Shown here one piece after another: positions 310 to 48,882 of a stretch of DNA of 64,000 nt. A program made the translations under genes and the position numbers. The first letter of the stretch is position 1; every line of letters starts with the position of its first letter. The notes under the pieces are model-generated. The model was not told where the DNA came from. It was given only the letters and a program-made list of their open reading frames with translations, and searched no databases. The DNA is from Natronomonas marina (GTDB taxonomy: Archaea > Halobacteriota > Halobacteria > Halobacteriales > Haloarculaceae): assembly GCF_024298905.1 (NCBI RefSeq), contig NZ_CP101154.1:1488001-1552000 (forward strand), written 5' to 3'.

Positions 310-822
310 TCAGTCCGCAAGTGTCTCGAGCTTGTGGATGATTTTGGTATAGACATCGGGCGCACAGTACCACCCCTCGTTGATCATGGCATCGATCACG
401 GTCCGTGCTTCGTCGACACCCATCGTGCCCTCGTTTACGAGTTTCAGAACGAGATACGCCGTTCCTCTCGTTGTGATGCCCTCGGCCGCCGCCACGTTCC
501 GGCCATACGTCTCATCCATCACGGCCGTCCCGTCGTGGGCGTCGGCACAGGCGAGGACGGCGGCATCGGCATCGCTGAGACTGTCGTTGGTCTGGAGTCG
601 GGACAAAAGCGGAGACATTCCAACGGACACGATGTCGAACCTATCGGTATCGACGCTTCGTTCGATGCGACGGGCGTCCGGATACCCTTCCTCACGGCCG
701 GTGGCAACGACCTCCTCGTAGACGCGCTCGGGAATCACACATGACGCCGCAAGATGCTCGACGAGCGTCAGTCGGTCGACTTTGGCGAGGTAGATGAGGG
801 GAGTAGCGTCAAAGACCCACAT
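310..822 (-). CDS. DUF3368 PIN-like toxin, copy 1
   Basis: A 170-residue PIN-like protein, probably the RNase toxin of a type II toxin-antitoxin pair. It starts MWVFDATPLIYLAK, with the first PIN acidic residue at Asp5. A central Glu lies in PERVYEEVV, and later acidic residues occur in LSDADAAVLACADA and VMDETYGR. This is the DUF3368 pattern. The ATG follows the antitoxin stop codon with no gap (TGA then ATG), so the two are probably translationally coupled. A close homologue of the same length lies at 48370-48882 with the same junction. No frame damage is visible. RNA cleavage is inferred from the family. Confidence 0.85.
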   Translation of the reverse strand: MWVFDATPLIYLAKVDRLTLVEHLAASCVIPERVYEEVVATGREEGYPDARRIERSVDTDRFDIVSVGMSPLLSRLQTNDSLSDADAAVLACADAHDGTAVMDETYGRNVAAAEGITTRGTAYLVLKLVNEGTMGVDEARTVIDAMINEGWYCAPDVYTKIIHKLETLAD

Positions 823-1113
823 TCACAGCGCCTCGAGATCCGAGTCGAGATGGTCATCATCCACCCAGGTGATATCGCGTTCCTTGGCGAGTTGTGCGAA
901 GTCCCAGACCGACATGCCAGCTAGCTCAGCCGCCTTGCTGAATGTGATGGTCCCTGCCGCCAGTTGATCGAGCGCGCGCTCGCGTCGCCACGCTTCGAGC
1001 CCTTCGGAGAGGAGCTTTCGAATGGCCGTACTCCGGTCGAGGTTTTCGTCTTCGAGATAGGCGTCGAGTTCAGCCTCTAATTCGTCGGGGACGCGTGCCG
1101 AGATCGTTCCCAT
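823..1113 (-). CDS. UPF0175 family antitoxin, copy 1
   Basis: A 96-residue antitoxin. I chose the ATG at 1113 (MGTISARVPDEL) over a longer frame because copy 2 starts at the same residue and a palindromic operator lies just upstream. Residues 1-40 look like a ribbon-helix-helix DNA-binding segment (STAIRKLLSEGLE). Residues 55-85 (TFSKAAELAGMSVWDFAQL) are the helix-turn-helix-like UPF0175 core. It would neutralise the DUF3368 toxin encoded immediately downstream and probably represses its own operon. Copy 2 at 48079-48369 differs at only a few positions. Confidence 0.85.
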   Translation of the reverse strand: MGTISARVPDELEAELDAYLEDENLDRSTAIRKLLSEGLEAWRRERALDQLAAGTITFSKAAELAGMSVWDFAQLAKERDITWVDDDHLDSDLEAL

Positions 1114-1123
1114 GGAGTTTACA

Positions 1124-1142
1124 TTGTATGCAACGCATACAA
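1124..1142. promoter_or_regulatory. Palindromic operator of TA copy 1
   Basis: The sequence TTGTATGCAACGCATACAA has perfect 8-bp arms around a 3-bp centre and ends 10 bp before the antitoxin ATG at 1113 (minus strand). A decayed version occupies the same place before TA copy 2. A related palindrome precedes the UPF0175-like gene at 35611-35967. The antitoxin dimer is the likely ligand (inference). Confidence 0.7.
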
Positions 1143-2012
1143 ATGCCTTGGCATCCAGCACCAATTTCCTGACAGCTGGCAAGGTCGAAATCGGCGGCTC
1201 CCGTCCGCAAGGATGCCCTGGATGTCTTCGGGCCGGCGAGGGGCGCCGAGCAATTGGGCGGGTCCGCACCCTGATCGGTGCACGAGCGGATGTCCTCGCC
1301 ACGGTACTGGAGAGGGACCGCACGTCGGAAGACGAACGTTCGCGGGCGGATCGTCAGGCACTCGCTGAGGATCGTTTGAGGGCGGGTTCAGCAGCCCGAT
1401 ATCCGTCTTGAAAGCCTTCATGCCGAGATATCGAACTCTGACGCTCGATTCCTCGAGGTAATACGGGCCATCGGTACGGGGAGTTCGAATAGCGTTCTTC
1501 CGATCAGTCCGTCTGTGTGGTCGTGCATAGCCAATACTGAAAACGGCTACAGTCGCCGAAAGGCCGGAGACACACCGTTATCGAAGTGTATCGACTGGCA
1601 TTTCCCACACGCCTCTATCGATATGTTTCAACCCAAATTTTCCTCAACCGCACGGTCTACACCCGTGAGAGCGGGGGTGAGCGGTCCGAATGTAACACTT
1701 CGAACACATCGATTGGGGGGAATGTGTGTTCTTACCGCTCATTCTTCTAGCCAAAGCAACACGGGTCGGGCTCGATACCGACGCTCAACCGTTGTATAGG
1801 GCGATACGGCTTCTCTTACCGAATGATGTGAGAAATCAGGTAGGCACGAGGATGGCTTTCCTGGCCCAGGTTAACCCCGGTGGACGGATTTATATTCGGA
1901 ATCCGACAGACAGGAGCGGTGGTACGGTTCGCCGCTCGGTCCATCGATCGGAGACGTTACTGGCCGTTGACACCGGTGACAGATCATGATCCCCATCTCG
2001 TTTCCCATGGCG
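1143..2012. other. Gene-free stretch before the glycan locus
   Basis: Open frames here lack recognisable domains and overlap one another on both strands. Nothing convincing is present. The region separates the TA module from the nucleotidyltransferase, whose 3' end is at 2013. Confidence 0.5.
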
Positions 2013-7262: not shown

Positions 7263-8354
7263 TTATTCAACTAAATTATGGTATAGTTCAGAATGCTTAT
7301 TAGCTATGTGTGAAAATGAGTTTTTATTCGCATATTCATTAATGGCTGCGGAGAGATTCTTTCTTTTCTGTGCATCTTTTAATATAGATTTGACAGTTGA
7401 CTTTATGTCCTCCAAATCATTCACATCAAATATTTCTACACAACTGTATCTTTCTTTCAGTTTCTTGAAATATTTCTGGTTGCTTGCAGCAACTGGAACA
7501 CTATGGGATGCGCATTTATTTAGTACTCCACTTTGATTTACTTGATTCAGGACACCTTGCTGCTCAGTCCCTGTATAAGGTAGGAGTACAAGATCAGCAG
7601 CACGAAAAGATAAATGGAATTGATCTTGTTCCAAAAATCCAGTAATATATAAGTTTTGGGGTGAATTCTCTTTAATTTTGTCGCAGTATTGTTGGTGCTT
7701 TTCTGGAGAACCCCCAGCCAAGAGAAACTCGTATTCGTCAAGTTCAGACGCAAGGTCTCGCATGATGTGGCTTCCTTTGCGTGGAACTACGTACCCGGGT
7801 TCCACAATCAGAGTTTGCTCAGCACTATAACCAAATTGTTTTTTCGCCTCTATTTCTGATGTTTTCGGTACATCCAAGTTTGCTCCGTGAGAAAGCACGG
7901 AGTAACTAACACTGTGATTGGCAAACCTTTCTTCAGCAGTGTCAGAAAGAAATATAATATGGTCGGAGCTTTTTGCTATTAGTTTATTTATTAAATATAT
8001 ATAAACGGACTTAATCCAATAATCCCCGACTAAATCTGGATTCAATACTTCATGTAATGTAATCACCACCTTCTTCTTATATATTTTAGATAAGATGTAG
8101 ACCAGGGGGAAAAACAGCCAAGAGATTATACTAAATGGACCGAATAATGCATATTCATGTTGGATATGAATAACTTCACTATCACTTCGAAAAGAATAGG
8201 TTACACTTAAAATATATTTCAAAATATTCATTCCCCCATTTGGGAATGTGGATAGATTTATTTCCACACTATCCCCAAATTTAGACGCCAAGTCGTGGGT
8301 GTATGATCCAATTCCACCTGTTCTTTCATCTGGCCCCATTATAGTTACCTTCAT
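7263..8354 (-). CDS. GT4 family glycosyltransferase, AT-rich
   Basis: A 363-residue GT-B glycosyltransferase. The N-terminus MKVTIMGPDERTGGIGSYTHDLA has the glycine loop of GT4. VIHIQHEYALFGPF and the hydrophobic LFFPLVYILS follow. The C-terminal half has LIVEPGYVVPRKGSH and VLLPYTGTEQQGVLNQ. The usual E-x7-E near the donor site is not clean here (QSGVLNKCA), so this is a divergent member. Its ATG overlaps the stop of the upstream sulfatase-fold gene by one base (TAATG), implying coupled translation. Base composition is far more AT-rich than the rml genes, suggesting transfer. Confidence 0.8.
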   Translation of the reverse strand: MKVTIMGPDERTGGIGSYTHDLASKFGDSVEINLSTFPNGGMNILKYILSVTYSFRSDSEVIHIQHEYALFGPFSIISWLFFPLVYILSKIYKKKVVITLHEVLNPDLVGDYWIKSVYIYLINKLIAKSSDHIIFLSDTAEERFANHSVSYSVLSHGANLDVPKTSEIEAKKQFGYSAEQTLIVEPGYVVPRKGSHIMRDLASELDEYEFLLAGGSPEKHQQYCDKIKENSPQNLYITGFLEQDQFHLSFRAADLVLLPYTGTEQQGVLNQVNQSGVLNKCASHSVPVAASNQKYFKKLKERYSCVEIFDVNDLEDIKSTVKSILKDAQKRKNLSAAINEYANKNSFSHIANKHSELYHNLVE

Positions 8355-9637
8355 TATAACTCTCCGGATCTCTGTGCGCAGACATCCCTTATATCTAGAA
8401 TTTCTTCCTCATGGGCAGCTCTTTTCTGCAGCTTTTTATCTATTATTTCCATTAGTGGTGAATCTTTAACTGGTTCTTGAGATTCAATGCCTTTTTCGTT
8501 CAGCTCATACAATGTTGATACCCAATCTCCCTCTTGTCCCTGCTTAACTAAGTGCCCCTTCCAACCGTTCATTTTGATGGATAATAGATTTCGATCTCGT
8601 ACACCATCATATGCGGATGAGAGAGCTAATTCTGCTCCTGAATACGTGGTAGAACCAGTTTCAGCAATCTCCACGAGAACCTTCGGCAGATCTGTAAGTG
8701 GCACTGGTTTTTCTATAGTCTCAGACCGGTCGATATCACCCCCGATAGCAAATGGGACATGGATGTTTTCTTCAAATAATGATGGATAAAAATGCCCATA
8801 CATTCCACGCTCACCAATGGCCTCTCCATGATCTGCGGAGATTATTAAAATTGTATTTTCCATATCAAGACGATCTCGTAATTCACCTACCAGCTTATCA
8901 GCGAACCGGATTGAATCATCGTAAATATTTCTTATACCCTCCTGATCTCGTTCGGAGATTTCGATATCGAATTGATCTAAGAGTTTATTACACCGCCAAT
9001 TGTAATAATACGTTGAAAAAGAATTCGACCATTTTCGATGTTGTCTAGGTGTGATATAGGGAAAGTGAGTATCAAGGGAAAACCCCCACATGAAATACGG
9101 GGAATCTTGCTTGTTTGCCCACTCTACCATATCATCTACATAAGTATCCCAGGTGCGAAAGGCTTCTTCTTTTCTGATAAGATTCCGAATATTTCGTAGT
9201 GAGGTGGATATCTTGGAATCGTTCAAGTGTTTCTGGAAAACCTTTTGATAAGTGCCAGAATCAAATAGGAAATCTTCAAAATCATCGAATCCTTTGTCAA
9301 ACCCATAATACCTTGAGGCATATGCATTCGGACAAAACGCACCAGTTGAATAGCCCTGTTCCGAGAGCCTTGAAGCTATTGTCCCATAACGTTCCAAATG
9401 ATATTTGGATTGGTTTGGATTGGAGACTTTTCCGCGAGTAACAAGCGGTTCTCCAGTAAATATACCGGCCATAGAGGGGTTAGTTCGTGAGGCAGGAGAA
9501 ACAGCATTTGTGAACGAAATTCCATTATTGGCAAGATCGTCTATATTAGGCGTAGTATTTCGGTCATAGCCGACATATCCGCAATGATCAGCACGAAGAC
9601 TATCAAATGTTATGAATACGAGGTTTGGCTTTGTCAT
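8354..9637 (-). CDS. Alkaline-phosphatase/sulfatase-fold enzyme with Thr nucleophile
   Basis: A 427-residue cytoplasmic-looking enzyme with no signal peptide. Metal-binding FDSLRADHCGY lies near the N-terminus. NIDDLANNGISFTNAV is followed by RTNPSMAGIFTG, which aligns with the sulfatase C-x-P-S-R-x4-T-G motif but has Thr for the modifiable Cys and Met for the Arg. ISADHGEAIGERG supplies further metal ligands, with H in MYGHF. Thr at this site is usual in phosphatases and phosphoethanolamine-type transferases, so substrate class is open. I chose MTKPNLVF at 9637 because the longer frame adds an unrelated leader. Unlike many sulfatases it ends without an RL..LGY tail. Confidence 0.75.
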   Translation of the reverse strand: MTKPNLVFITFDSLRADHCGYVGYDRNTTPNIDDLANNGISFTNAVSPASRTNPSMAGIFTGEPLVTRGKVSNPNQSKYHLERYGTIASRLSEQGYSTGAFCPNAYASRYYGFDKGFDDFEDFLFDSGTYQKVFQKHLNDSKISTSLRNIRNLIRKEEAFRTWDTYVDDMVEWANKQDSPYFMWGFSLDTHFPYITPRQHRKWSNSFSTYYYNWRCNKLLDQFDIEISERDQEGIRNIYDDSIRFADKLVGELRDRLDMENTILIISADHGEAIGERGMYGHFYPSLFEENIHVPFAIGGDIDRSETIEKPVPLTDLPKVLVEIAETGSTTYSGAELALSSAYDGVRDRNLLSIKMNGWKGHLVKQGQEGDWVSTLYELNEKGIESQEPVKDSPLMEIIDKKLQKRAAHEEEILDIRDVCAQRSGEL

Positions 9638-9701: not shown

Positions 9702-9926
9702 TCATTCGTTAAGATACCCAAGTGCGTTTAGCCTATCTTCGACTTGCTTCTCATCAATATCTTCAATTTCTGAATCATCTCTTTTCCTAACAGCATACAG
9801 TACTTCTTCGATGATATATTGTATATATTCATCTACATCAGAAAATTCTGTATAGTTTGTCCGTTCATCAATCTCTTCCCACATATCCTCGGGTATTTCG
9901 ACAGATTTCGTATCTCCACCTGACAT
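9702..9926 (-). CDS. Small RHH-like protein with sulfatase-type 'RL..LGYL' tail
   Basis: A 74-residue acidic protein. Residues 5-45 (VEIPEDMWEEIDERTNYTEF, then SVDEYIQYIIEEVLYAV) resemble a CopG-type ribbon-helix-helix segment. The last residues, VEDRLNALGYLNE, match the C-terminal tail seen on many sulfatase-fold enzymes, including IKERLRSLGYIDD on the second such enzyme in this window. It lies 64 bp upstream of the Thr-type enzyme on the same strand, so it is probably in the same operon. Function is unknown; a regulator or an accessory/docking subunit are both possible. Confidence 0.6.
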   Translation of the reverse strand: MSGGDTKSVEIPEDMWEEIDERTNYTEFSDVDEYIQYIIEEVLYAVRKRDDSEIEDIDEKQVEDRLNALGYLNE

Positions 9927-11016: not shown

Positions 11017-12419
11017 CATTCGTCTTTAGCTAAGACTCACACCTCGGTTGCGTAGCGGTAGCGAGCGTCTCTTGCAGGATCGGTCATTGTTGGTGGATCT
11101 TCTGTGCGTCGTCGATCAGCCGCTCCAGCAGTGGCGGTGGCGAGTACCCGAGGTACTCACCGAGTTCGTGGAGGATGAGCTGGGCGTGCGACCGGAAGGT
11201 CGCCGCCCAGCGTTCCGGCGGAAACACGATCTCGTCATCGGCCTGCTCGGTGACCAGATCCAACAGATCACGGCTCACCAGCAGTGACAGCAACGCTGCG
11301 TACAACAGAATTTCCACGACATCCGGGTTGCTCGTGTCGAACTCGTCCAGTCCGTACTGTGTCTTCAGCTCACGGAACAGCGTTTCTACCTCCCACCGGC
11401 ACCGATACAGCGTCGCTAAATCTGACGGCAGGAATTCCTCTCGCGGCAGATTCGTAATGTGGAGGTGGTAGTCGTCGGCGTCCGAGTCCCGGACGCCGAC
11501 GACGCGGAACCGCTTCGTATCCAGCGACCGCGTTCCTTCGTGCTGGCCTCGCTTGAACTCCGTTTCGACCTCTACGTCGATGTATTTCGGCGAGAGGTCA
11601 CCGACCACATCGTGAATCTGCTCACCTTCTAAGTGAATGGCGCGGCCACGCCATTCCGGTAACTCCGCCGTTATCACCGGGTTCACGCTCTTCTTCAGCC
11701 GACTCACGAAGTAGCCGCCGTTCTCGTCGATCAACGCAAACCGGCGGTACTTGAAGTACGCCAAATCGAGCAGAACCAGCCGTCCGTGCAGCCACGATCC
11801 CGTGTTGAACAGCGTGCTGTCGTGTGTTTTCTCGTCGGTCACGTCGATCCGTTCGATCGTCTGGTCGGTGGCATTGTGGAGCAGGTGGAGCTTCGCTCCA
11901 GCCTGCTCCTCGTGGCGGGCGTGGAACTCCTCAGAGAGAAACTCGTGCAATCGCAGCACCGTTCCATCAGTGATCATCACGTCTCTGGATCGGTCGATAT
12001 CAGCGTCAACAGCGTCGGGAACAGCGACCTCGTCGAGACCGCGCTCGACGAGGTCGCGGAGATACTCTGCGAGCGTCGGCGTCAACCGATAGTAGAAGCC
12101 GCCGGGAGAGATCGTCTCGTCGGCTGTGGAGTTGTAACTGCGTCTGAACCCAGCGAGTGTTCGGCTCTCGCCTGCGGGGAAGCCGAACACGAGCGCCCAC
12201 ACGAGGACTGGAACCTGTAGCTTGCCCTCTCGCTCGACCACGCCGAGTTCCTCGGCGTGCTCTTCGAGGAACTCGGAGCGAAACAGCGTAGTAAGCCGAC
12301 GCATGATTCTCGATGAGGAGGCGTCTGTGTGCACAGCGGATACCTCCTCATTCCTCTCGAAAAGTAGCCTCGATAAGCCGCCGCTGTCACGCGGTTCCTC
12401 TCTTAGCTAAAGACGGATG
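11017..12419 (-). mobile_element. ISH8-type IS4-family insertion sequence, apparently complete
   Basis: A 1403-bp element with 19-bp terminal inverted repeats. The left end is CATTCGTCTTTAGCTAAGA (11017-11035); the right end (12401-12419) is its reverse complement with one mismatch. It contains one full transposase gene on the minus strand and is bordered by a 10-bp target duplication. It interrupts an older transposase whose reading frame resumes on the other side. Confidence 0.9.
11084..12304 (-). CDS. ISH8-type transposase
   Basis: A 406-residue IS4-family DDE transposase that would cut and join the ends of its own element. It begins MRRLTTLFRSEFLEEHAEEL, the usual ISH8 start, so I prefer ATG 12304 to the Met ten codons upstream. 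Recognisable parts are VMITDGTVLRLHEFL (first catalytic Asp), LVLLDLAYFKYRRFALIDEN (second Asp) and YRCRWEVETLFRELKTQYGL (Y-R-E motif with catalytic Glu). No stops or shifts are seen, so it may be active. Confidence 0.93.
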   Translation of the reverse strand: MRRLTTLFRSEFLEEHAEELGVVEREGKLQVPVLVWALVFGFPAGESRTLAGFRRSYNSTADETISPGGFYYRLTPTLAEYLRDLVERGLDEVAVPDAVDADIDRSRDVMITDGTVLRLHEFLSEEFHARHEEQAGAKLHLLHNATDQTIERIDVTDEKTHDSTLFNTGSWLHGRLVLLDLAYFKYRRFALIDENGGYFVSRLKKSVNPVITAELPEWRGRAIHLEGEQIHDVVGDLSPKYIDVEVETEFKRGQHEGTRSLDTKRFRVVGVRDSDADDYHLHITNLPREEFLPSDLATLYRCRWEVETLFRELKTQYGLDEFDTSNPDVVEILLYAALLSLLVSRDLLDLVTEQADDEIVFPPERWAATFRSHAQLILHELGEYLGYSPPPLLERLIDDAQKIHQQ

Positions 12420-17510: not shown

Positions 17511-19205
17511 TCATCCTCTTGTATATACATAAGAGTTGCCGTTGGAATATACCTTATGTACACTATTTTTTGATAACTTAAAAGATAGGTCTTCGGGGTT
17601 GAAAGCGAACGAACCGGTAGACCCAGTAAATCCCCAATATAACTTAAAGTTACTTTCTCGAACAACCATAATACTATCTTTAGGTGGATCTCCCTCCTGG
17701 AATGATTTGATATCGGCTACAGTGGGTGTTAAGCTCATAGTAGAAACAATCTGATATGTATTGAGATCGCCAATTATTTTCCCTGTATTAGTGTGAATAC
17801 TTACAAATTCTCCTGTGAAATACAGTGTCTGGGGAAATTGTTGGTATTCATCAATTTGGTCCGGGGAAGGAGGTGCGTCTGAGATCGCGTATGCTGGGAC
17901 CGTACTTGCACCAATCATCAATAAGACCACAATGTAGACTCTTACACCTTTCTCAGAATCTGAATACATATGTATTCCAAGAGTTGAAACTCCGCCCGCG
18001 ATAATAATAAAGAACAAAAATAGTCTGTTGAATCCAATGACGTGGGTAAGCCAGCCAAATAATGCCCCAAGAGCAATTAATACTCCAAATATCACTACAG
18101 AACTATACCAAACCATATCGTTAGTATTGGGATACTTTTGTGTTACACTTTTCACGAAAGCATACATAACTCCTAGTGAGATGGCAAATTGATAGATCCA
18201 CCTGCTAAAGAAAATCCTATAGGTATTGTAGGCTGAATTACTTACGGCATTTTTTGTTCCACTTCTAGCGCTTTCAGTTTGGAAAAAATCAACTAAGGAA
18301 CCCAACCTAAATAGGGCTAAACTATTCAATATATTATGTATGAATGATGTATTACTAGGATATAGTAACACATACCAAATGGAAAATACAATTACATAAA
18401 CAGAAATGAGTGAGAAGGTCGAGATAGATTCCAAATGTTTGCGAAAAATGGTTGAGAAGCCCAAAATAATGACAGTGAAAGAAATGAAAATTATAGATGT
18501 GAAATGATGAGCAATCACTAAGCAATTAGCAAGGATTACTGCAATTATCCACGGCCGTCTGTCATTCGTTCTGCTATACCAACAGTAGAAGGTATAAATA
18601 GCCAAAATAAATAGCGCGAATGCCAAAGAATTCCGGGAGAATCCAGTCTTATATCTATACAAAGGTATATAGAAAAGAACTGGTGAGAAAGCAAGAGACG
18701 CTCTTAAATTAGATCCCGAACGACGCAGCCAGCGTCTGATAAACAAATATGATGCCAACAGTGAAATGGAAGTGAATATTATCGGTAGAATGGATGTAAT
18801 TAATATCTGGCCAGACTTTGAAGGATAAACCCCTAATGAAGTTATTTTATGAGAGGATATAGTTAGAAAATGAAGCAAAGGGGTGCCAAGAAATCCTCGA
18901 TCCAAAACCGATTGACCGACTGGCCAACCTTGATTCATAATCCTGACGGTTTTGAGAGCGGAGATGTGTGAATCCCGAGCGTACAACCAGCCAGTCGTGG
19001 GCGTAGGATACAATAGGAGAAAAGACCCGGCCAAAGTAACTGCGAATTTTATGTCACCAGTCAATATAAATAATATAGCCAATATTACAGAGGTGATTAT
19101 AATGAGTGCTGGCTCTTGACTACGGATCCCATAAACTAACCCCGAAAATAATAGAAAATTCGAAATCAGTAACCTCTTACCGATATTAGTCATCAATATA
19201 TCCAA
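17511..19205 (-). CDS. Multi-spanning membrane protein, probable GT-C glycosyltransferase
   Basis: A 564-residue protein with roughly twelve hydrophobic segments spread from residue 15 to about 430, then a soluble tail of about 130 residues. The first external loop carries WLYARDSHISALKTVRIM. An acidic residue in this loop after the second or third membrane segment is where GT-C enzymes keep their catalytic Asp. Later loops contain GWPVGQSVLDRGFLGTPLLHFL. It would use a lipid-linked sugar on the outer face. The start lies within the end of the upstream sulfatase-fold gene (20-bp overlap), so both are co-translated. Very AT-rich. A glycan polymerase is an alternative. Confidence 0.55.
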   Translation of the reverse strand: MDILMTNIGKRLLISNFLLFSGLVYGIRSQEPALIIITSVILAILFILTGDIKFAVTLAGSFLLLYPTPTTGWLYARDSHISALKTVRIMNQGWPVGQSVLDRGFLGTPLLHFLTISSHKITSLGVYPSKSGQILITSILPIIFTSISLLASYLFIRRWLRRSGSNLRASLAFSPVLFYIPLYRYKTGFSRNSLAFALFILAIYTFYCWYSRTNDRRPWIIAVILANCLVIAHHFTSIIFISFTVIILGFSTIFRKHLESISTFSLISVYVIVFSIWYVLLYPSNTSFIHNILNSLALFRLGSLVDFFQTESARSGTKNAVSNSAYNTYRIFFSRWIYQFAISLGVMYAFVKSVTQKYPNTNDMVWYSSVVIFGVLIALGALFGWLTHVIGFNRLFLFFIIIAGGVSTLGIHMYSDSEKGVRVYIVVLLMIGASTVPAYAISDAPPSPDQIDEYQQFPQTLYFTGEFVSIHTNTGKIIGDLNTYQIVSTMSLTPTVADIKSFQEGDPPKDSIMVVRESNFKLYWGFTGSTGSFAFNPEDLSFKLSKNSVHKVYSNGNSYVYTRG

Positions 19206-20550
19206 GCGATCGAAGTCTTTCCTTAATCTCTTCGCTACTATCTTCTGATTTCAATTCGTCGTGGAAATCAATATGGTCTATTCGTTCATGTAGCTCTTCC
19301 TTCAATTGGGTTGTAAGGCTCGGATGATCTATATCAGGTACCTCAGTTTCTTCGAGGAGGCTCTCTACTTTATATAACTGGGATCCGCTTTCTCTGTGTA
19401 TATACTTCCAATCTCCTGTATGGTAGACTATTTCATGTGAATTTGTGTTAATGATTGAACAAACACCATTCCTGTCAAATTCATCATCCCGAGTTCGTTC
19501 CAATAATGATGACCCTCTGAAAGACTTAGGAATCTCTGTGTGTGCAACATCACCAATTGTGTTAGATATGTCAATATTTTGTACCGGTGCAGAAATGTCC
19601 ACCGAGCCAAACCCAGGTCCATTAATTATTAGCGGAACATGGATGAGAGGTTCCCACGGTGAATTCCCATGGCTTACTTCGCCGTGTTCACCAAATAATT
19701 CACCATGATCGGAAGTTATGAAGATAGTTGGATCACCTTGACGGGTTTCTCTGATCTCCTCAATCAATTCCCCCACCTTCTGGTCCCAATATTCAACACT
19801 TGCAGAATATAACTCTTGGATGTCCTCCAATTCCGCATCTTTTATTAAATTTTTAAAGTATCTGAATTTTCGATTCAGGCCTTGAATTCTATACTGAGAG
19901 ATAACTCCTGTGTATTCATTTGGGAGGAATTCCTCCGGAGGCAACCACGGTTCATGGGTGTCTAAATAAAATAACCACATAAAACAAGAGTCGTTTTGAG
20001 GTACCTCATTATCCAACCATTCTAAAGCAGAGTTGTTGATGACTTCTGCTGAGGGGGCTGGTCGCGCTAGTGGAAGAGGAAGATATGATACAATCGATGC
20101 TATAGTATCATGTATTTTCCCTTCACCGAAGACTTCATGAGAAACATAGCCAACACCATGAGCGGCCTTCTCGACAGTATATTCTGATTTTTCTCGTACT
20201 GCATCTAGCAGAGTATCAAAGTGGTCAAAACCTCGTTGCAATTCCATATGGGATAAATGTGGACCCACTATCTGGATATTGGGACAGAACCCTGCAGTTT
20301 TATAACCAACTTTACTGAGTTCTTCAGCAATTGTTGGAGTAGTGTTTTTTACCGATGGCTTATATTCGCCCGTTAATAACGAAGGTACAGATGCTACGGT
20401 ACCGGGTCCATTAGCAATCGCAGTTTGGTAAGCCGATCCGTTTTCTGCCAACCGGTCTATATTAGGGGTGTCCGCAGGAGAATCTGGGTTAAAGTAGGAG
20501 ATATAATCAAATCGCAAAGAGTCGGCGGTGATGAGGATTATGTCATCCAT
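19186..20550 (-). CDS. Second sulfatase-fold enzyme with Thr nucleophile
   Basis: A 454-residue enzyme without a signal peptide. Metal motif LITADSLRFDYISY is at the N-terminus. NIDRLAENGSAYQTAI is followed by TVASVPSLLTG, where Thr occupies the position of the modifiable Cys, Ala that of Pro and Val that of Arg. ITSDHGELFGEHGEVSHG gives the second metal set. It ends IKERLRSLGYIDD. I chose ATG 20550 over GTG 20562. A formylglycine sulfatase is unlikely from these residues. It overlaps the GT-C-like gene and presumably acts on the same glycan. Confidence 0.75.
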   Translation of the reverse strand: MDDIILITADSLRFDYISYFNPDSPADTPNIDRLAENGSAYQTAIANGPGTVASVPSLLTGEYKPSVKNTTPTIAEELSKVGYKTAGFCPNIQIVGPHLSHMELQRGFDHFDTLLDAVREKSEYTVEKAAHGVGYVSHEVFGEGKIHDTIASIVSYLPLPLARPAPSAEVINNSALEWLDNEVPQNDSCFMWLFYLDTHEPWLPPEEFLPNEYTGVISQYRIQGLNRKFRYFKNLIKDAELEDIQELYSASVEYWDQKVGELIEEIRETRQGDPTIFITSDHGELFGEHGEVSHGNSPWEPLIHVPLIINGPGFGSVDISAPVQNIDISNTIGDVAHTEIPKSFRGSSLLERTRDDEFDRNGVCSIINTNSHEIVYHTGDWKYIHRESGSQLYKVESLLEETEVPDIDHPSLTTQLKEELHERIDHIDFHDELKSEDSSEEIKERLRSLGYIDD

Positions 20551-20639
20551 CTCCTTGTCCACCCTTATTATGAGCTACTAATTAGAGTTTCGGAGTCAGT
20601 GTTAGCAAAACAAGAGTGTGACGTAGAATCCATCTAATA

Positions 20640-48369: not shown

Positions 48370-48882
48370 ATGTGGGGCTTCGACGCCACGCCGCTCATCT
48401 ACCTCGCGAAGGTCGACCGTCTCGCGCTCGTCCAGCATCTTGAAGCGTCGTGCGTACTCCCGGAGCGTGTCTACGAGGAGGTCGTCGAAACTGGTCTCGA
48501 GCAGGGATATCCGGACGCCCGGCGCATTGAGCGCAGCGTCGATGCCGACAGGTTTGATATTGTGTCGGTCGAGACCACCGCATTGTTGACCCGCCTCCAG
48601 GATAATAGCAACCTCAGCGACGCCGATGTCGCTGTCCTCGCCTGCGCCGACGCCCACGATGGTGTGGCCGTGATGGATGAGACGTACGGTCGTGACGTTG
48701 CAGCGGCCGAGGGAATCACCACCCGGGGGACGGCATATCTCGTGCTAAAACTCGCGAGCGAGGGGACGATCAGTGTCGACGATGCCCGAGCCGTGATTGA
48801 TGCGATGATCGACGAGGGGTGGTACTGCGCCCCCGACGTCTATGCGAAAATCATTCAGAAACTCGAGTCACTTGCGGACTGA
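48370..48882 (+). CDS. DUF3368 PIN-like toxin, copy 2
   Basis: A 170-residue PIN-like protein with the same length and motifs as copy 1 (MWGFDATPLIYLAKVDRLAL; LSDADVAVLACADAHDGVAV; MDETYGRDVAAAEGI). The N-terminal Asp5 and later acidic residues are kept. The frame is intact. Its partner antitoxin precedes it without a gap, and both copies could cross-neutralise each other. Confidence 0.85.
   Translation: MWGFDATPLIYLAKVDRLALVQHLEASCVLPERVYEEVVETGLEQGYPDARRIERSVDADRFDIVSVETTALLTRLQDNSNLSDADVAVLACADAHDGVAVMDETYGRDVAAAEGITTRGTAYLVLKLASEGTISVDDARAVIDAMIDEGWYCAPDVYAKIIQKLESLAD

Follow-up and report, generated by a model that had tools for sequence, protein, structure and literature searches.

A short C-terminal tail, RLxxLGY, is found in Natronomonas marina both on AlkP-fold enzymes and on a small RHH-like protein, and the only PF00884 enzyme of the genome that lacks the tail is encoded beside this small protein. 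In an unbiased sample of 14 haloarchaeal genomes, small tailed proteins of this kind were found near some of the tail-less enzymes and near none of the tailed ones. A tail common to enzymes and RHH proteins points to a docking tag, as yet undescribed, in the sulfation of glycans.

A tail shared by an enzyme and a small protein

The window (the whole stretch of 64,000 nucleotides analysed, positions 1,488,001 to 1,552,000 of NZ_CP101154.1) includes a glycan island with GT2 and GT4 genes, a GFO/IDH oxidoreductase gene and a MurJ-like flippase gene. The relevant features are the following:

9702..9926, minus strand: RHH-like small protein with C-terminal LGY tail (74-aa ORF, homologues, structure model)
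9705..9743, minus strand: tail of the small protein, VEDRLNALGYLNE; positions V(-8), R(-5), L(-4), L(-1), G(0) and Y(+1) in common with 72 enzyme tails
8354..9637, minus strand: enzyme A, tail-less, sulfatase fold (PF00884, E=2.9e-38), with Thr where FGly sulfatases have Cys; belongs to the tail-less clade linked to RHH genes
8357..8416, minus strand: end of enzyme A, AHEEEILDIRDVCAQRSGEL; a C-terminal stretch proper to the clade, which has an invariant Glu instead of the LGY tail
19186..20562, minus strand: enzyme B, tailed, sulfatase fold (PF00884, E=2.5e-31), Thr at the FGly-Cys position
19189..19227, minus strand: tail of enzyme B, IKERLRSLGYIDD; helix 440-452 after a linker with pLDDT <50

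The first-pass annotation had described enzyme B as tailed, enzyme A as tail-less and the small protein upstream of enzyme A as tailed, and the three C-termini agree with that description. The gene for the small protein lies 64 bp upstream of enzyme A (from the RHH stop codon to the ATG at 9637). Eight PF00884 genes are present in the 3.99 Mb genome, and seven of them end in the motif, enzyme A being the sole exception. When a strict codon pattern for the tail was run on the same genome, AT-rich tails were missed, including those of the window.

Assignment of enzymes A and B to the AlkP superfamily (PF00884 fold) is provided by Pfam and, for enzyme B, also by Foldseek, which returned an arylsulfatase match with E=5e-21. 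Solved sulfatases match enzyme B in alignments that, as displayed, stop short of the tail. The fold is thus common to enzymes A and B and to FGly sulfatases of PF00884; however, the latter have Cys in the CxPxR signature, while both window enzymes have Thr, and all Cys-type enzymes sampled are untailed. The annotation of enzymes A and B as ‘sulfatases’ is probably misleading. Thr at the formylglycine position is also found in most of the haloarchaeal PF00884 proteins sampled.

The small protein is less easily classified. Pfam and NCBIfam gave no match for the 9702-9926 product, a search of PDB sequences with the RHH profile gave a single chance match to Pumilio, and a plasmid search yielded six haloarchaeal records, every one of them hypothetical. 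Pfam RHH_1 was weakly matched by 6 of 36 family members (best E 0.0028). In the AlphaFold model, core helices (residues 13-23 and 31-51) are followed by a linker predicted with low confidence (block mean 56) and by a separate tail helix (59-68). ParD/PrpA RHH antitoxins (ParD2, PrpA) were among the best solved matches detected by Foldseek, only at E>3. Together, these matches point weakly to an RHH fold. Compared with ParD, CopG and PrpA, with which it appears to share an RHH-like core (at Foldseek E>3), the small protein has an additional linker and the LGY tail; furthermore, the strand residue is non-basic in most members of the family, and no toxin partner was seen. The model of enzyme B has a comparable layout, with a tail helix at 440-452 (block means 65-73) and a linker at 434-442 with pLDDT <50. 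A helix predicted behind a low-confidence linker in both proteins fits a tethered peptide.

Some other ORFs of the window may be mentioned. A DDE transposase gene (PF01609) lies within the glycan island (11084-12334, minus strand). Two ORFs that are similar to each other (310-822, minus strand, and 48370-48882, plus strand) look PIN-like and toxin-antitoxin-like as judged by eye; the first adjoins a CopG-like ORF (823-1323, minus strand).

The tail is terminal and marks Thr/Ser-type enzymes

In the fetched loci, 1,728 ORFs that do not overlap one another were searched for the pattern [RKQEHNDS][LMI]xxLGY at the C-terminus. It was terminal in 92 of them, compared with 0.14 expected from its internal frequency; because the loci had been picked for sulfatases or RHH proteins, this contrast measures terminal placement and not genome-wide frequency. 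The 92 ORFs comprised 57 AlkP-fold proteins, 27 RHH-like proteins and 8 others. In the small protein and in the 72 enzyme tails, R, L, L, G and Y occupy the same positions (-5, -4, -1, 0 and +1), and position -8 of RHH and enzyme tails is V or another residue, mostly hydrophobic.

The first-pass annotation had considered the tail a sulfatase feature. This view did not hold: all 65 tailed enzymes in a set of 112 sequences have Thr or Ser at the formylglycine position, and none of 10 Cys-type enzymes (classical FGly sulfatases) is tailed. In the unbiased part of the set, Thr/Ser-type enzymes (59 tailed and 10 tail-less) differ from the 10 Cys-type enzymes with p=1.3e-7. The tail is thus a mark of enzymes with a Thr/Ser nucleophile, which are probably transferases, and not of true FGly sulfatases.

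Two enzymes characterized in the literature bear on this question. Agl30 (VNG1056C) and Agl31 (VNG1057C) of Halobacterium salinarum are AlkP-fold N-glycan sulfotransferases, and Agl31 is soluble (PMC11980604). Translation of the primers listed in Table 1 of that study, a reading that is ours and not the paper's, indicates that Agl30 ends in HLEDLGYL and Agl31 in LEELGYT, immediately before the StrepII tag. The tail is therefore present on two experimentally supported sulfotransferases. The StrepII-His tag placed right after the tail did not abolish activity of either protein in Hfx. volcanii (PMC11980604), hence a free C-terminus is not needed. Agl30 and Agl31 have in common with the window system the AlkP/sulfatase fold, location in an N-glycosylation gene cluster and the LGY tail, the sequence comparison covering the C-termini. 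In contrast with these enzymes, whose tail is in cis, enzyme A is devoid of tail and has an RHH partner.

Tail-less enzymes are found beside tailed RHH proteins

According to the first-pass annotation, its proposal would fall if tail-less enzymes and small tailed neighbours turned out not to be statistically linked. Such a link was found both at the level of genes and at the level of genomes. For the gene counts we used all 90 PF00884 matches of the 14 haloarchaeal genomes with 4.5 kb flanks. The main distance cut-off was the fetched flank itself and was not tuned; four cut-offs were applied and all gave the same direction. The counts were as follows:

(i). Nine of the 25 tail-less PF00884 genes had a tailed RHH gene at a distance of at most 4.5 kb, and none of the 65 tailed ones did (p=2.9e-6, related genes being counted as independent).

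(ii). Within 1.5 kb, the figures were 5/25 and 0/65 (p=1.2e-3, with related genes again counted as independent).

(iii). Among enzymes of the Thr/Ser type only, an RHH gene was found beside 8 of 10 tail-less and none of 59 tailed genes (p=5.4e-9, common descent being ignored). The ninth tail-less case is a Cys-type enzyme 3.2 kb from the RHH gene, and may be a coincidence.

At the genome level, profiles of the tail-less clade (A4) and of the accessory RHH protein (A1) were run on 293 genomes, with cut-offs of 300 and 50 bits that we chose from gaps in the score lists. The accessory tailed RHH was present in 44 of 45 clade-positive genomes and in 8 of 248 clade-negative ones; the lone clade-positive genome without it (G139) is 72% complete. 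Genes detected with the clade profile were often close to the accessory RHH gene (30/66 within 2 kb, 44/66 within 5 kb). Among the genomes that have the RHH gene only, five (G066, G058, G116, G162 and G188) carry tail-less PF00884 enzymes of a second lineage at 2.8-6 kb, two (G233 and G109) have a tail-less PF01663 enzyme straight after the RHH gene, and one (G182) shows tailed neighbours only.

Loci chosen for their RHH gene are less tidy. Ten tailed enzymes were also found within 5 kb of an RHH gene, mostly with a tail-less enzyme nearby. Two loci are awkward: L055 (from G182) showed no tail-less partner, and the enzyme nearest to the RHH gene of L238 is itself tailed. In addition, no AlkP enzyme was detected within about 8 kb of the RHH genes of L240, L241, L243 and L244. 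A YdjM-like membrane protein gene (PF04307) occurs straight after the RHH gene at L043:5656-6276, and a similar ORF takes this place in L042.

The association recurs in separate lineages

In a tree built with tails removed, most RHH-linked tail-less PF00884 enzymes fall into one strongly supported clade, and a second group is found elsewhere. Two members of the tail-less clade, L260 and L261, have a tail in cis and no adjoining RHH gene. Among haloarchaeal PF01663 enzymes, L301, L293 and L294 are tail-less, have a C-terminal extension and are immediately preceded by a tailed RHH gene; L294 nests within a tailed group. A tailed RHH gene was immediately upstream in 0 of 12 tailed PF01663 loci, two of which (L299 and L300) are PF00884 genes that were also matched. 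Short tail-less PF01663 enzymes, with ends such as DIAPTIL, likewise have no tailed RHH gene upstream. With the second PF00884 group and the PF01663 enzymes added, the pattern involves about five independent lineages. Strict phylogenetic tests of the link between tail and RHH are underpowered: an independent-pairs test on the PF00884 tree had 4-5 usable pairs, about 2.4 concordant and 0.1 discordant, and was not significant.

RHH-LGY proteins form an ancient family

A scan of a genome collection detected the family in Thermoplasmata, Alkanophaga, Woesearchaeota and Altiarchaeota, and also in Aminicenantes, Kerfeldbacteria and one Planctomycete. In an alignment of 36 members, including that of the window, an RHH-like core is followed by a VxxRLxxLGYL tail in which L, L, G, Y and L are invariant. 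Neighbours outside haloarchaea include genes for ATP sulfurylase (E=2e-88), APS kinase (1e-58), CysD-type PAPS_reduct proteins, sulfotransferase and PF01663 enzymes. RHH-LGY is therefore an ancient family spread across Archaea and some Bacteria, mostly adjoining sulfate-activation genes. Almost every AlkP enzyme seen in these non-haloarchaeal genomes lacks the tail and belongs to another type, so that these genomes provide no test of cis/trans exchange.

These data modify the idea of a ‘detached sulfatase tail’ put forward initially: enzymes and small protein do carry the same motif, but the small protein belongs to an ancient family of its own, which suggests that its tail did not originate in a haloarchaeal sulfatase.

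A small RHH-type gene in a similar setting has been reported in Pyrococcus yayanosii, where PYCH_17520, named as a putative copG transcription factor, belongs to a sulfate-assimilation cluster and lies beside genes for ATP sulfurylase, DHH pApase, type I phosphodiesterase and APS kinase (PMC8268124). RHH-LGY relatives occur in clusters of this kind; the likeness is one of cluster, and the consulted passages of PMC8268124 are silent on the tail. The window differs from the P. yayanosii cluster in being a glycan island, and ATP sulfurylase is absent from the 14 haloarchaea sampled: no PF01747 match was found in G000 or in 13 other haloarchaeal genomes, and in these 14 genomes the matches to APS kinase were all weak.

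Some further tails deserve mention. Another RHH protein, encoded at L094 (G000:C1:1964436-1964636, minus strand), also bears the tail, here as DQLQDLGYLE. It resembles the RHH proteins of archaeal sulfate-activation clusters, and weaker matches of this sort occur in most of the 293 haloarchaeal genomes. This widespread type was not seen next to any AlkP gene. CysD-type proteins from RHH-LGY clusters (L190:6969-7796, L193:5346-6155 and L198:10072-10902) end in MQKLRALGYM or MQKLRSLGYM. These were set aside as instances of the tail because they look like the CysD family's own terminus. Lastly, a family-2 glycosyltransferase of Kerfeldbacteria (L200:10526-11671, minus strand) ends in KIKERLKSLGYLD; the contig that encodes it also carries an RHH-LGY gene, together with a PF01663 enzyme that has no tail.

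A docking peptide and its alternatives

Because the link between tail-less enzymes and tailed neighbours came out in favour, the best reading of the tail is a docking or recognition element operating across the pathway. We consider it somewhat probable that RLxxLGY is a tethered docking peptide of cytosolic AlkP-fold sulfation enzymes, which these either carry in cis or obtain in trans. The tail would be a short helix that serves transferases of glycan sulfation. Most haloarchaeal Thr/Ser-type enzymes would carry it in cis on a flexible linker; for tail-less lineages, enzyme A among them, a dedicated RHH-fold partner encoded alongside would provide it in trans and presumably bind the enzyme. 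The partner, probably a dimer, would display two tails, and through the tail the enzyme, alone or together with the RHH protein, would dock onto a shared component of the machinery for sulfation or for lipid-linked glycans. In the literature we found no paper with the term ‘LGY motif’, and no ‘LGY’ among the sulfatase papers found. Readings of the tail as docking peptide, regulator, structural element or product of shared ancestry are not mutually exclusive.

One alternative is that the small protein is a classical RHH transcription regulator (CopG/ParD type) of glycan sulfation genes, with a tail that, as an effector or sensing element, looks like the enzyme tails by chance or senses the enzymes. 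Its weak RHH-like matches, the divergent orientation of some RHH genes and their own enzyme genes, and the copG annotation in the P. yayanosii sulfate cluster (PMC8268124) are in line with this possibility. A regulator would, however, be expected beside tailed and tail-less enzymes alike, which disagrees with the 9/25 versus 0/65 distribution; regulation thus accounts for less of the anticorrelation than a docking peptide does. In RHH-LGY proteins, the outward strand position two residues before Pro is Ser, Glu or Asp in 28/36 and basic in 3/36, another point against a regulator, albeit one tempered by the Thr that CopG itself has there. One alignment of the divergent intergenic region from five loci displayed TATA-like blocks and no obvious palindrome. 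We regard a regulatory role as rather doubtful.

Another possibility involves no third protein: each tail would fold onto the enzyme that bears it, in a structural or regulatory role, and tail-less enzymes would have their fold completed by the RHH protein. A structural element that has been split would indeed be expected to come either in cis or in trans, and the tail helix of enzyme B is modelled with moderate confidence; yet the linker of this enzyme has pLDDT <50, the AlphaFold output gives no docked position for the tail, and the RHH family is also found in clusters whose AlkP enzymes are nearly all tail-less and of another type. This makes folding back unlikely.

Less probable still is a generic amphipathic helix with a C-cap, evolved several times over, with the RHH/tail-less pairing reflecting common descent of a few clusters and no exchange of function: a helix ending in Leu-Gly-Tyr is a plausible C-cap, most RHH-linked tail-less enzymes fall in a single clade and tree-based tests have little power, but R-L-x-x-L-G-Y is almost invariant in the RHH family across Archaea and Bacteria, the motif is strongly concentrated at C-termini and restricted to enzymes of the Thr/Ser type, and the association reappears in the second PF00884 group and among PF01663 enzymes. 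A simple degron was set aside because Agl30 and Agl31 stay active with a tag after the tail (PMC11980604).

The docking peptide can be placed in a broader proposal, which we find plausible although short of an even chance: a portable C-terminal peptide would unite AlkP-fold sulfotransferases and phosphodiesterases with an RHH adaptor, the cis tail having been lost repeatedly beside a gene for the trans adaptor, and the same adaptor family would serve ancient archaeal and bacterial sulfate-activation clusters. If this is true, ‘CopG’ RHH proteins in those clusters would be enzyme adaptors and not DNA-binding factors. Many genes annotated as ‘hypothetical’ or ‘CopG’ would then become candidate subunits of glycan-sulfation enzymes, with partners predicted from sequence by a simple rule: a tail in cis, or else an RHH protein in trans. 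The proposal also bears on how haloarchaea sulfate N-glycans without ATP sulfurylase and with weak APS-kinase matches, and on why sulfatase-fold proteins with a Thr nucleophile act as transferases.
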